A stretch of 32,350 nt of DNA from the NCBI GenBank assembly GCA_903866825.1, contig CAIPPE010000146.1, forward strand, positions 1-32,350, given 5' to 3'. This document shows, in pieces, positions 1-4,805 of this stretch; within the stretch, counting starts at the first letter, position 1; each line of letters opens with the position of its first letter. A program made the position numbers and the translations under genes. The DNA comes from an uncultured Methylococcaceae bacterium. Lineage in GTDB: Bacteria > Pseudomonadota > Gammaproteobacteria > Methylococcales > Methylomonadaceae. A model generated the notes under the pieces. It saw only the letters and a program-made list of their open reading frames with translations, was not told the origin of the DNA and did not search any database.

Positions 1-1350
1 ATCTTTTATAGTACCGTGAAAAATATAAGCATTCTGTCCGACCCAAGCGATCAGCTTTGCTGCATTTTCTTGAGTGACTTCAACGCCATTGAGTAAAACC
101 AGTCCCTCTGAAGGACTTTCAAAGCCTAACAATAAATTAAGTAATGTGGTTTTTCCAGCACCGGATTCACCTATTAAAGCGATTTTCTCGCCTTGAGTAA
201 TCGCTAAATTAATAGACGTTAACACCGTTCTTTGTTCATAACTTTTAGTGACATTTTTAAATGCAATGCATTGCTTATTAACAAGGTGTAAAGTTACTTT
301 TTTCTTAACTGCTAAACTCGGCTTCTGCTCAAGAAGGGCGAGAATGGCATCCGTTGCACCTAAAGCAGCCGCCCGATCATGATAGTTAATGGCTAATTGT
401 TTAAGTGGCATAAAAAATTCAGGGGCCAGTAACAACACAAACAAAGCATTTCTTAAAGTAATATGTTTTGCTGGACCAAAATGTATTTCACCTAATAAAC
501 CCAAGCCAACATACACGGCAACCAGAGCAACAGCAATCGCACTAAAGAATTCCAGAACTGCAGAGGATAGAAAAGCAATTCTTAAGACCGCCATAGTTTT
601 TTCCCGGAAGTGTTCGGCCATACGGTTAATGTTATTTAATTCTGCTGTCGCTTGACCGAATAACTTGAGTGTCGCTAAACCTTGGAGGCGATCCAGGAAG
701 TAACCGCTCATTCTTTTCATGGCTAAAAACTGGTTACGGTTTGCAGACGCTGCACCCATACCCACTAAAGCCATAAAGATAGGGACTAAAGGGCCGGTTA
801 ATAAAAAGATTAAGCCAACCACCCAATTAACAGGCATAACGACTATTATCATAATGATGGGCAGTATGCCGACAATCATTTGCTGGGGTAAATAACGCGA
901 GAAATAATTTTCCAGAGCGTCTACCTGTTCCAAGGTAACAGAGGCCAGCTCACCACTTTGATGTTGTTTGATTTCGGAGGGGCCCAGGATTAAAAACGTA
1001 TCCAGTAATTGTTGCCTGACAGATGATTTGACTTGGGCGCCTGCCTCAAAACCAAAAACCTGATACGCATAAAGACAGGCTCCACGTATAAGGAAGACAC
1101 CAACTAAAGCAGCAAGCCAAGACATGATAGAAGCCAAAGTCACTTTATCTATAATGACAGCGTGTAATATAAACGCCAATAAAGCCGCTTGTACAATAAC
1201 CAATAAGCCGTTAAAAATACCGGCGCCAGCCGTCAATAACAGGGGTTTTCGAACCGCTTTACTTTGCTGCTTTAACCACGCGGCACATTCTTTTTCCCTG
1301 ATTTTGTTCTTATCAAAATAGACTTGATTTTCAGAATTAGTAGACTGCAC
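1..1350 (-). CDS. cydD: Thiol reductant ABC exporter subunit CydD (3' end missing)
   Basis: Half of the CydDC heterodimeric ABC exporter, which moves cysteine/glutathione to the periplasm and is needed for cytochrome bd assembly. The frame is open from a GTG at 1350, preceded directly by an in-frame stop, to the left window edge: 450 codons of a family usually near 580. The N-terminal permease region carries stretches typical of CydD such as PLVPIFMALVGMGAASANRN, FLDRLQGLATLKLFGQA and VLEFFSAIAIALVAVY. The nucleotide-binding domain then starts, with Walker A GESGAGKTT at about 151-171 of the window; the signature and Walker B motifs lie outside. Shine-Dalgarno support for the GTG is weak, so the start is less sure than the identity. 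It diverges from the sulfide operon across a 375-nt gap. Confidence 0.93.
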   Translation of the reverse strand, partial: MQSTNSENQVYFDKNKIREKECAAWLKQQSKAVRKPLLLTAGAGIFNGLLVIVQAALLAFILHAVIIDKVTLASIMSWLAALVGVFLIRGACLYAYQVFGFEAGAQVKSSVRQQLLDTFLILGPSEIKQHQSGELASVTLEQVDALENYFSRYLPQQMIVGILPIIMIIVVMPVNWVVGLIFLLTGPLVPIFMALVGMGAASANRNQFLAMKRMSGYFLDRLQGLATLKLFGQATAELNNINRMAEHFREKTMAVLRIAFLSSAVLEFFSAIAVALVAVYVGLGLLGEIHFGPAKHITLRNALFVLLLAPEFFMPLKQLAINYHDRAAALGATDAILALLEQKPSLAVKKKVTLHLVNKQCIAFKNVTKSYEQRTVLTSINLAITQGEKIALIGESGAGKTTLLNLLLGFESPSEGLVLLNGVEVTQENAAKLIAWVGQNAYIFHGTIKD

Positions 1351-1533: not shown

Positions 1534-1592
1534 TTGTTTCATTAAATCACGTTGAAACAGATAAATGTTTCAATGAAACGAATTATGAAACA
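1534..1592. promoter_or_regulatory. Cluster of TGTTTCA half-sites (candidate activator binding region)
   Basis: A perfect inverted repeat, TTGAAACA, six bases, TGTTTCAA, lies at 1552-1573. Three more half-sites flank it: TGTTTCA at 1535-1541, TGAAACG at 1574-1580 and TGAAACA at 1586-1592. Five half-sites in 58 bp, centred about 130 bp upstream of the predicted sigma-54 start point, is where an enhancer-binding activator would be expected. The identity of the binding protein is inference. Confidence 0.55.
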
Positions 1593-1667
1593 ATACACTA
1601 GCGACAGGCATCTATTTAAAACAAAGGACAAGCTATAACCTATGGATTTATCTTGTTTTGTTTTATT

Positions 1668-1683
1668 TGGCATGACCATTGCT
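1668..1683 (+). promoter_or_regulatory. Sigma-54 (-24/-12) promoter of the sulfide operon
   Basis: TGGCATG, ACCA, TTGCT matches the RpoN consensus TGGCACG-N4-TTGCW at all but one defined position. The GG (1669-1670) and GC (1681-1682) are separated by exactly 10 bases, as the family requires. Transcription would start near 1694, leaving a leader of about 30 nt before the ATG at 1726. Known precedent: FisR-type sigma-54 activators switch on pdo/sqr genes in response to sulfane sulfur in Cupriavidus. No fisR-like gene lies in this window. Confidence 0.65.
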
Positions 1684-1725
1684 TTATATAAACAAACAAC
1701 CTCGCAAAACACCTGGAGAGACCAC

Positions 1726-2811
1726 ATGATATTCAAACAATTATTCGATACAGAGACCTGGACTTATACCTATTTAATTGCAGATCCTGTTAGCAAAGAA
1801 GCTTTATTTATTGACCCCGTCAACACCCATATTGATCACTATATTGCTTTACTGGAAGCACAGGGCTTGCAACTTAAATATTCACTTGAAACCCATGTTC
1901 ATGCCGACCACATAACTGCAAGCGGCTTGTTACGTCAACGCTTGGGCGCACAAACAGCGGTTAGTGAACTATGCGGCGCAGCGACTGCGGATGTACAAAT
2001 TCAGGATGGGGATATCTTTAAGTTAGGCACCAGTGAAGAAGTTAAAGTGATTGCGACCCCGGGTCATACGCGAGGCAGTATTTCTTTTTTATGGCGTGAT
2101 CGTGTTTTCACTGGCGACTCTTTATTAATCGGTGGTTGTGGACGTACTGATTTTCAGGGCGGTGACCCCGGTGCGCTTTATGACTGCATTACCCAACGTT
2201 TGTTTACCTTGAAGGATGAAACACTGGTTTATCCAGGACATGATTATCAGGAACGATGGGTGAGCAGTATCGCGCAAGAACGCACGACCAATCCACGTTT
2301 AGCAGGAAAAACACGTGAGCAGTTCATCGAAATCATGAACCATTTGAACCTTCCTAAACCACGCTTAATTGATGAAGCCGTACCTGCTAATCGTTATTGT
2401 GGCTTAGATGAAAATGAACGTCAGGATGCCGTTGCTGTGAGAGAATCCGCACGTCCGGTTCGCATTGAAATTACGCCTCAGGATATGGTGGCCGAAGCCA
2501 AACAACACATTACCGAAGTTAATATAGCGACTGCAAAACAACTGTTGGCAGAGGGTAATATTGTACTGGTTGATACCCGTGAAGAGAGTGAATATGCAGC
2601 CGGTCATATTGATAATGCCCTGCTACTGCCTCGTGGAATTCTGGAATTTAAAATCGGTAATAGTCCAGAACTAGCAGACAAATCCAAAGCTGTGTTAATT
2701 TATTGCCGTACAGGTGGTCGTTCTGCAATGGCGGCACAAACCATGCAACAGTTAGGTTATAAGAATGTCTTGTCCCTGGCGGGTGGTTTTGAAGCCTGGC
2801 AAAAAGCGTAA
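1726..2811 (+). CDS. Persulfide dioxygenase-rhodanese fusion (ETHE1-like)
   Basis: Predicted to oxidise glutathione persulfide to sulfite, with the rhodanese domain exchanging sulfane sulfur between GSSH, sulfite and thiosulfate. The 361-residue protein starts with a metallo-beta-lactamase fold: THVHADH gives H57, H59, D61 and H62, followed by H114 (TPGHTRG), D131 (TGDSL) and H172 (PGHDY). H57, H114 and D131 match the 2-His-1-Asp iron site of ETHE1. The C-terminal rhodanese domain, about residues 260-360, has active-site loop CRTGGRS with C327. The size and order resemble the PDO-rhodanese fusion (PRF) of Burkholderia rather than the longer CstB. I chose the ATG at 1726 because GGAGAG lies 5 nt upstream and the sigma-54 promoter lies between it and the ATG at 1642. 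It is first in a run with the SQR gene 37 nt downstream. Confidence 0.93.
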   Translation: MIFKQLFDTETWTYTYLIADPVSKEALFIDPVNTHIDHYIALLEAQGLQLKYSLETHVHADHITASGLLRQRLGAQTAVSELCGAATADVQIQDGDIFKLGTSEEVKVIATPGHTRGSISFLWRDRVFTGDSLLIGGCGRTDFQGGDPGALYDCITQRLFTLKDETLVYPGHDYQERWVSSIAQERTTNPRLAGKTREQFIEIMNHLNLPKPRLIDEAVPANRYCGLDENERQDAVAVRESARPVRIEITPQDMVAEAKQHITEVNIATAKQLLAEGNIVLVDTREESEYAAGHIDNALLLPRGILEFKIGNSPELADKSKAVLIYCRTGGRSAMAAQTMQQLGYKNVLSLAGGFEAWQKA

Positions 2812-2848: not shown

Positions 2849-4108
2849 ATGTCATTACACCCTACTATTTTAATAATCGGTGGCGGCGCAGCAGGTGTTG
2901 CTGTTGCGAATACTTATCGTCGTCAAGACAAAGAAATTGATATTGCTATTATCGAGCCAGCAGAGAAGCATTATTACCAACCAGGCTTTACGGTCATTGG
3001 TGGTGGTGCTTACACGATGAAAGAAACTACTAAAAATGAAGCCGATTTAATCCACCCCTCGGTTACATGGATTAAAGAGTATGCTGAGAGTTTTCAACCA
3101 GAAGCCAATACAGTGACGTTGCGTTCGGGTGAAGTGGTCAGTTATGACTATTTGGTCGTCTGCCCTGGCTTACAATTGGATTGGCATAAGGTCGAAGGCT
3201 TGCAAGAAACCATCGGTAAAAATAATGTTTGTAGTAACTATTCACCTGACACAGTGGAATATACCTGGCAATCCATTAAAGAAATGATCGCTAAAGGTTC
3301 AGGTACTGCGTTATTTACGCAACCTCCTATGCCGATTAAATGCGCGGGAGCACCACAAAAAATCATGTATTTAGCGGCAGATAGATTCCGTAAAAAAGGC
3401 ATACTAGAGAAGTTTAATATTGAATTTTGTACCGCAGGCCCTGCCATATTTGGTATTCCTTTTTTTGCTAAAGTATTAGCCAAAGTCGCGGCTGGTTATG
3501 GTATTAAGTCTAATTTTAATACTAATTTAGTAGCCATTGATGGCGAGAATAAAACAGCTACCTTTGAGGTCACCGACAGCGAGGGTAACAAAACCCGCAT
3601 TGATAAGTCTTTTGACATAATTCATGTGACGCCACCACAATCTGCGCCCGATTTTATTAAGAATAGTCCGTTAGCTAATGCCACAGGTTGGGTTGATGTT
3701 CATGATAAAACCCTGCAACACACAAAATATCCCAATGTATTTGGCTTGGGCGATGTTATCTCAACCAGTAATGCAAAAACGGCTGCTGCTATACGTAAAC
3801 AAGTCCCCGTTTTGGTTGATAACCTGACGAATGTGATTAAACAAGCCGGGCTACGCGAAGGGTATGATGGTTATGGCTCCTGTCCATTAACGACATCATT
3901 AAGTGGAGTCATATTGGCAGAGTTTTCTTATGGTGGAAAAATTACCCCTTCTTTTCCCTTTGTCGATCCAAGAAAAAGTCGCTGGATTTGGTGGCTAGGC
4001 AAAACCTCAATTTTTCCCTGGATGTACTGGCATTTAATGCTGAAAGGTTATCGTTTTGATATTCCGCATGTATCCAGATACGCGGAAAAGTTTGTTAACG
4101 AAGACTAA
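2849..4108 (+). CDS. sqr: Sulfide:quinone oxidoreductase, type II (SQOR-like)
   Basis: A membrane-associated flavoprotein that oxidises sulfide, passes electrons to quinone and hands sulfane sulfur to a thiol acceptor such as glutathione, the substrate source for the preceding dioxygenase. The 419 residues begin with the FAD-binding Rossmann motif IIGGGAAG (9-16). The redox cysteines are visible as C165 in MPIKCAGAPQKIMYLA and C345 in GYGSCPLTTS, the two contexts seen in human SQOR. A further C128 occurs in NNVCSNYS. The C-terminus (RKSRWIWWLGKTSIFPWMYW) is aromatic and amphipathic, as expected for the monotopic membrane anchor. RBS AGAGGAA precedes the ATG. Order dioxygenase-SQR on one strand with a short gap supports a single transcript that detoxifies or respires sulfide. 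Confidence 0.94.
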   Translation: MSLHPTILIIGGGAAGVAVANTYRRQDKEIDIAIIEPAEKHYYQPGFTVIGGGAYTMKETTKNEADLIHPSVTWIKEYAESFQPEANTVTLRSGEVVSYDYLVVCPGLQLDWHKVEGLQETIGKNNVCSNYSPDTVEYTWQSIKEMIAKGSGTALFTQPPMPIKCAGAPQKIMYLAADRFRKKGILEKFNIEFCTAGPAIFGIPFFAKVLAKVAAGYGIKSNFNTNLVAIDGENKTATFEVTDSEGNKTRIDKSFDIIHVTPPQSAPDFIKNSPLANATGWVDVHDKTLQHTKYPNVFGLGDVISTSNAKTAAAIRKQVPVLVDNLTNVIKQAGLREGYDGYGSCPLTTSLSGVILAEFSYGGKITPSFPFVDPRKSRWIWWLGKTSIFPWMYWHLMLKGYRFDIPHVSRYAEKFVNED

Positions 4109-4166: not shown

Positions 4167-4805
4167 ATGCCTTGCGATCTTATCGCCTTTACTATCAGTT
4201 GTCTATTGTTAGTGATTTACTATTTCTATTTAAGCAGACGGACTCGTAGAATACCTGATTCAAGCGTACAGGCAGTCAATGCGACGATCAGGAATCGTTG
4301 GGTAAAGAAGATAATGAGTAATTGCAATATGGATATTCTTGCCATTCAAACGTTGCGAAACTCAGTTATGGCAGCCAGCTTCATGGCCACAACAGCCATT
4401 TTGCTGGTAATCGGCGTGTTAAACTTGAGTGAAAAGATTGGGGAATGGTCTCATAATTTGTCTCCTTTCCTTTCACTTTGTATTTCATCAAGTGAGCTAT
4501 GGCAAATTAAAATGGGGTTGTTGCTGTTGAGTTTTACTATTGCTTTTTACAATTTTGCAATGGCAATACGCTTTTTTAACCATGTTGGATACATGATTAA
4601 TCTATCCAATGAAACTTTGTTTGACAAAGATTTATATAAACAATCCTGTACTTATTTAAATAAGGCCGGCAGCTATTATTCGTTTGGCACACGAACCTTC
4701 TTTTTTAGTTTACCCATCATTTTATGGTTTTTTGGCCCCAGTTTTTTGATACTGGGGACGCTAGTTTTAATGATTAGTCTCACCATAATAGATAAAGCAC
4801 CTTGA
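4167..4805 (+). CDS. DUF599-like membrane protein
   Basis: A 212-residue inner-membrane protein with about four hydrophobic segments (near residues 5-24, 66-88, 105-135 and 178-205). The stretch AVNATIRNRWVKKIMSNCNM followed by NSVMAASFMATTAILLVIG resembles the conserved N-terminal part of the DUF599 family, whose function is not known. An AGGGGAA ribosome binding site precedes the ATG. It lies 58 nt after the SQR stop and 28 nt before the P450 start, so it probably shares the sulfide-operon transcript. A role in sulfur-compound or quinone-linked membrane chemistry would be guesswork; only the context suggests it. Confidence 0.75.
   Translation: MPCDLIAFTISCLLLVIYYFYLSRRTRRIPDSSVQAVNATIRNRWVKKIMSNCNMDILAIQTLRNSVMAASFMATTAILLVIGVLNLSEKIGEWSHNLSPFLSLCISSSELWQIKMGLLLLSFTIAFYNFAMAIRFFNHVGYMINLSNETLFDKDLYKQSCTYLNKAGSYYSFGTRTFFFSLPIILWFFGPSFLILGTLVLMISLTIIDKAP

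Follow-up and report, generated by a model that had tools for sequence, protein, structure and literature searches.

In Acinetobacter baumannii, the operon A1S_1707-1711 (pdo1-sqr-tauE-hsd) is reported to lie behind a predicted sigma-54 promoter, with fisR transcribed divergently, and deletion of fisR is reported to abolish its induction by sulfide (PMC7315123). The FisR of Cupriavidus pinatubonensis JMP134 is presented in reviews as a sigma-54 activator of sulfide-oxidising genes, in which three cysteines sense sulfane sulfur by becoming cross-linked (PMC9774590, PMC12170894); one account counts FisR among the repressors in its text and shows it as an activator in a figure legend (PMC8148161). 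Aerobic methanotrophs, for their part, are described as often meeting toxic sulfide (PMC10205796).

The DNA analysed here comes from a probable methanotroph. Its source is taken to be one of the Methylococcales, since the regulator of the same-genus genome G028 (L105) opens with the residues that also open the regulator of L157, a contig named as that of an uncultured Methylococcaceae bacterium. The window, by which we mean the whole stretch under analysis, is the entire contig C146 (32,350 bases) of a 345-contig, 4.28-Mb assembly (genome G000). It carries a pdo-sqr operon whose promoter, in our assessment, is likely to combine a FisR-type enhancer with a sigma-54 promoter and to be inducible by sulfide.

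Organization of the pdo-sqr locus and its promoter

The first gene of the operon, pdo (1726..2811, forward strand, with its ATG at 1726), encodes a 361-aa persulfide dioxygenase-rhodanese fusion, as judged from domain and structure matches. MBL and rhodanese domains are present in one chain, and the match to BpPRF (PDB 5ve3) spans residues 1-358 of the 360-residue query, a likeness that makes BpPRF a relative of the enzyme only and is silent on control. Downstream lie sqr (2849..4108, forward strand), whose 419-aa product matches the mitochondrial sulfide:quinone oxidoreductase 6mp5 (E 2e-100) and scores 215 bits against the NCBIfam type III SQR model, under its cut-off of 525, and a gene for a DUF599 membrane protein (4167..4805, forward strand, domain match), likely the third of the operon, which follows pdo-sqr in four further loci as well (L139, L140, L141, L146). 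Both pdo and sqr belong to the target genes of FisR promoters. A cytochrome P450 gene (4822-6180, Pfam) follows the DUF599 gene on the same strand in the window and is not there in L139, L140, or L146. On the other side, the divergent cydD (1..1350, reverse strand, named by eye) is cut by the contig edge; complete cydD and cydC genes adjoin pdo in G012, and in G032 one gene lies between. Genes of the cydDC-like kind and genes for cytochrome bd oxidase subunits (Pfam) are found near pdo-sqr in the window (1-1350), in L141 (G032) and in L146 (G017), making bd oxidase and sulfide oxidation genes neighbours.

Upstream of pdo, the candidate sigma-54 (-24/-12) box TTGGCATGACCATTGCT (1667..1683, forward strand) agrees at 13 of the 13 scored positions with the sigma-54 consensus. 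Its GG (1669-1670) and GC (1681-1682) are separated by N10, the A of the pdo ATG comes 43 nt after its last base, and the position, exact spacing and distance to the start codon that the preliminary description had given for this candidate were all verified. A search of the window with TTGGCAYRNNNNTTGCW returned nine matches, of which TTGGCATGACCATTGCT alone has fewer than two mismatches and the other eight have two, and none of 300 shuffles of the 400 bp before pdo yielded as good a box. Sigma-54 promoters begin transcription some 12 nt downstream of the -12 GC, a geometry that predicts a start at 1693..1694 (forward strand), and a likely ribosome-binding site, GGAG, can be read at 1715..1718 (forward strand). 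The assembly also encodes rpoN (C67:25735-26205).

Five TGTTTCA/TGAAAC half-sites, which had been described together with an inverted repeat, were all located by sequence scan where expected, between 1535 and 1592. Two are forward-strand TGTTTCA (1535..1541 and 1566..1572) and three lie on the reverse strand, reading TGAAACA (1553..1559 and 1586..1592) or TGAAAC (1574..1579) on the forward one. TGTTTCA shows no enrichment in the window at large (nine found against 7.7 expected), yet four of the nine fall within 58 bp, and the 400 bp before pdo hold four exact TGTTTC/GAAACA words against 0.64 in shuffles, none of the 300 reaching that count. The cluster contains both the spaced inverted repeat TTGAAACA-N6-TGTTTCAA (1552..1573), offered earlier as a binding motif, and the palindrome TGTTTCA-A-TGAAACG (1566..1580), which is one mismatch from TGTTTCAnTGAAACA and shows an arrangement common in relatives. 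The perfect spaced repeat occurs a single time in the 4.28-Mb assembly; with up to three mismatches it has 47 sites assembly-wide against 34 for the reversed control, so that its weaker matches hardly exceed chance. A search of this genome for a second GTTTCAnTGAAAC gave none.

Conservation and phasing of the promoter elements

Orthologues of pdo (E 1e-80) occur in 31 of 61 genomes, this one included; 30 loci were fetched (33 matches listed) and one was set aside (L043 of G004, where only 38 bp precede pdo), leaving 29 upstream regions. A sigma-54 box scoring 12 or 13 of 13 is present in 25 of them (each p <=0.007, 300 dinucleotide shuffles) and absent before pdo in L042, L046, L066, and L067. 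At least two exact TGTTTC/GAAACA words lie within 400 bp in 22 of the 25 box-bearing regions, where 0.2-0.64 are expected, and the conservation of box and half-sites in relatives is thereby confirmed. The arrangement varies: L044 and L050 have three half-sites each farther up, beside a box at -369, the four of L049 lie more than 220 bp above its box, and L059 has one only.

The candidate binding motif held up in a different form. Only four of the 29 regions have the spaced repeat TTGAAACA-N6-TGTTTCAA in exact form, those of the window and of its closest relatives, three sister genomes (L039-L041), whereas GTTTCAnTGAAAC (GTTTCA-n-TGAAAC) is exact in 16 and found with at most one mismatch in 20, the reversed control coming no closer than two. 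Since L059-L064 and the order-level relatives keep half-sites and do not have the GTTTCA-n-TGAAAC palindrome, the single TGTTTCA half-site is the most general element and the conserved unit. Exact TGTTTCAnTGAAACA is found once each in 15 of the 61 genomes (reversed control, 2 of 61): nine times before pdo, once before fisR, twice before a soxB-like gene, twice in clusters close to genes that are fisR neighbours in other genomes, and once inside an ORF.

The half-sites keep a 10.5-bp phase with respect to the box (R 0.54, p 0.0004, with clusters shifted at random as wholes), a period that fitted best among the 11 examined; the test used a non-redundant set of 18 promoters sharing under 75% identity, 17 of which contributed the 67 sites. 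Site centres tend to lie near -65, -77, -88, -98, -110, -118, -129, and -139 from the box. Phasing of this kind is a requirement of an enhancer acting by looping. There is also a hint of an IHF-like site between enhancer and box: over 18 promoters the mean best mismatch is 1.56 against 2.00 in single-letter shuffles (p 0.01), with no individual locus significant, and AAACAAT-like words resembling the IHF consensus lie at -27 to -30 above the box in several promoters, the window not being one of them.

FisR-like regulators in related genomes

A gene for a FisR-like protein (PAS, AAA+ sigma-54-activator and Fis-type HTH_8 domains) is present at E 1e-110 in 31 of the 61 genomes and in 23 of the 34 belonging to the same genus. 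It adjoins pdo in G018, G034, and G026 (same genus) and in G045, G039, G046, G051, and G054 (same order); most genomes that carry it have it away from pdo. Eighteen aligned FisR-like proteins share the C-terminal helix SRAT[FL]WR[KI]RK, and a tree built from 60 activators unites the FisR-like proteins with the Acinetobacter rows, L161 and L238 in a clade of 23 (support 100/99), which places the relatives' proteins in the same clade as an Acinetobacter FisR. The regulator gene of L161 adjoins a pdo-like gene, and in G017 and G019 a FisR relative stands beside an FAD oxidoreductase that is SQR-like in look and far under the NCBIfam cut-off. Upstream of the FisR-like genes themselves, at least two half-sites within 300 bp were found in only 12 of 30 cases. 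The best box of the order-level fisR|pdo regions has GA or GT for the -12 GC in four of five (G039, G046, G051, G054), as has that of the Methylomonas locus L156, and the half-sites of G054 lie 200-256 bp above its best box.

Across genomes, a box precedes pdo in all 21 that have fisR and in four of the seven that do not (present in G000, G012, G032, and G002, absent in G013, G036, and G020), an association that is suggestive only (Fisher p 0.011, or 0.043 without G020, relatedness not being allowed for). G045 stands outside this count, having fisR together with one pdo copy without a box (L067) and another beside fisR with a box of 11/13. The pdo promoter of G020 may lie elsewhere, because pdo follows a soxB-like gene there.

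That gene recurs in other contexts. In L070 (1454-1711, G034) and in L071 (G018) the half-site cluster is found at a second place, ahead of a soxB-like gene and accompanied by a 12/13 box, the gene's product scoring 122 bits against a SoxB model with a cut-off of 550, and in L046 (G020) an ORF of soxB-like kind, as judged by eye, directly precedes pdo. The presence of cluster and box in two genomes and the position before pdo in a third suggest a wider FisR regulon that would include the soxB-like gene. Operator clusters are also seen beside genes that adjoin fisR elsewhere in L078 (1491-1550, G004) and L076 (202-260, G022), fisR not being found there. Thiopurine S-methyltransferase genes recur near fisR or its targets (L070, 643-1350, by Pfam and NCBIfam; L138, 5980-6642, and L147, 4365-5057, by eye).

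With up to four candidates scored per genome, class-wide searches of 369 genomes matched one with alignment A2 at a cut-off of 1e-130 and 26 with a protein query at 1e-82. Among 28 loci from the latter search (the G039 locus left out), 23 had a recognisable activator, and none of these 23 had at least two half-sites from -350 to +60. With the exception of L238, these candidates fell outside the FisR clade where they entered the tree. A tblastn search of plasmids with pdo gave 135 records, all below 60% identity, with no sigma-54 activator in the two neighbourhoods inspected, and one with a FisR-like protein at E 1e-90 gave none.

Comparison with the Acinetobacter system and sulfide sensing

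Among the collection matches listed, a locus of Acinetobacter seifertii (L168) and one of a Moraxellaceae MAG (L169) have a like layout. The order in L168, a fisR-like activator divergent from pdo - sqr - tauE - homoserine dehydrogenase, is that reported for A. baumannii A1S_1707-1711 (PMC7315123). Its divergent region holds three exact TGTTTC/GAAACA half-sites, GTTTCATTGAAAC, and TTGGCATTGTATTTGCA, and the same half-sites are found in the divergent regions of both loci, with boxes of 12/13 in L168 and 11/13 in L169. Enhancer sites are hence common to the window and to a fisR locus with a characterised A. baumannii counterpart, and the window promoter may, by inference from this likeness, work as the Acinetobacter one does. 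As far as sequence comparison can establish it, the link to characterised FisR systems runs through Acinetobacter and not through Cupriavidus, the genus first invoked for this promoter. The window departs from the A. baumannii operon in that its rhodanese is fused to pdo, its operon has no tauE, its divergent gene is cydD, and no fisR was found in the assembly.

Whereas three sensing cysteines are described for the Cupriavidus FisR, the protein of A. baumannii is noted as being without them (PMC7315123), and among the FisR-like proteins that we examined no cysteine position ahead of the ATPase is invariant, the best being 11 of 18 sequences in alignment A1 and 6 of 13 in A2. The L169 protein has no cysteine in that region and some other members have three or more; a conserved set of three sensory cysteines was not found, the Cupriavidus FisR being compared by its published description. 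The published three-cysteine sensing therefore does not simply carry over. Of the proteins scanned for a PAS domain, the five from Methylococcales (L079, L116, L117, L123, L156) have one, and in the two of Acinetobacter type none was recognised at E 0.05. We tentatively entertain the idea that one enhancer code, of TGTTTCA half-sites and a sigma-54 box, and one regulator clade could operate in methanotrophs and in Acinetobacter, and that these regulators need no conserved thiol switch to perceive sulfide, those of the methanotrophs perhaps using a ligand bound to the PAS domain. If true, the three-cysteine mechanism would be one variant and not the rule.

Discussion

The interpretation of the pdo-sqr promoter as a sigma-54 promoter under FisR-type control, as originally proposed, is upheld by the box, the half-site cluster, its phasing, the sharing of sites with Acinetobacter, and the presence of rpoN, and had to be amended with regard to the repeat as first written and to fisR in this assembly. 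In the model that we favour, an activator of the FisR clade, with a PAS-like sensor, an AAA+ ATPase and a Fis-type HTH, would bind the TGTTTCA half-sites some 75-130 bp upstream of the box, occupying them on one face of the helix. Upon a rise in sulfide or sulfane sulfur, the activator would reach, through a loop in the DNA, the sigma-54 polymerase waiting at 1667-1683, and this contact would open the promoter for transcription of pdo, sqr, and the DUF599 gene. The SQR would then make persulfide, the dioxygenase-rhodanese would oxidise it, and the signal would fall. The activator doing this job here would presumably be a FisR missing from the assembly.

The genome as assembled encodes ten strong sigma-54 activators (Pfam), beside which there are four weak matches (E 5e-6 to 3e-4, in ORFs of 633-911 aa). 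The FisR-like gene that the preliminary description led one to look for is not among the ten, though such a gene is present in 23 of the 34 genomes of the genus. Neither protein nor DNA searches of G000 turned up a fisR orthologue: as a protein query, the fisR of the close relative G033 retrieved nothing but AAA+ matches of 38-48%, and as a DNA query it retrieved no gene fragment. Contig C33, which overlaps C146 within cydD, runs through cydC and covers the region after it without fisR, and fisR is likewise absent at E <= 1e-110 from G012 and G032, close relatives whose genomes are each 99% complete. All of this speaks for a promoter built for FisR in a lineage that has lost fisR, in which another of the ten sigma-54 activators, or residual transcription, would drive pdo-sqr. 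We regard such a loss as unlikely, if well within the range of serious alternatives: G033, whose pdo is 97% identical and whose promoter is near-identical, carries fisR after cydC, and in G012 the contig matching this stretch breaks off in a repeat some 130 bp after the matching part, before reaching the place of fisR, so that a gap in the assembly is plausible for that genome. Moreover, none of the genome's own activators falls in the FisR clade (0 of 9 in the tree, L009 left out) or has the SRATFWRKRK helix (0 of 10). Separately, contigs C132 and C192 of this assembly (L017, L019) carry near-identical pairs of genes, each for a 320-aa sensorless sigma-54 activator and a 242-aa membrane protein, which may reflect either a duplication or mixed strains in the assembly.

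The remaining alternatives concern the DNA elements and are much less probable than loss of fisR. A sigma-70 promoter for pdo, with the box a relic or a fortuitous match, could be argued from the four of 29 regions in which the box is missing or poor; its conservation in the other 25, and a simple consensus scan that found no sigma-70-like site in 1340-1760 where 2.5 were expected, make this very improbable. We consider it equally improbable that the half-sites form a repressor operator, recognised for instance by SqrR, BigR or another ArsR-type sensor of persulfide, or that they serve the divergent cydDC. BigR, an ArsR-type repressor, is indeed reported to control a second pdo operon of A. 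baumannii (PMC7315123), and cydD is divergent in the window, but the half-sites are located above the box and in phase with it, stay with pdo in relatives when the neighbouring gene differs, and recur at the fisR|pdo loci of other lineages.

A FisR-type enhancer acting on a sigma-54 promoter is a kind of system already known; what is new, as far as the open literature shows so far, is its methanotroph branch, its operator, and the spread of the clade. The TGTTTCA half-site would give the FisR clade an explicit operator, of which we met none in the open-access literature searched. Sulfide sensing by a FisR without the three cysteines, a question raised for A. baumannii (PMC7315123), can now be compared across natural variants. 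For the methanotrophs, the promoter described here would represent a specific, testable switch for sulfide defence.
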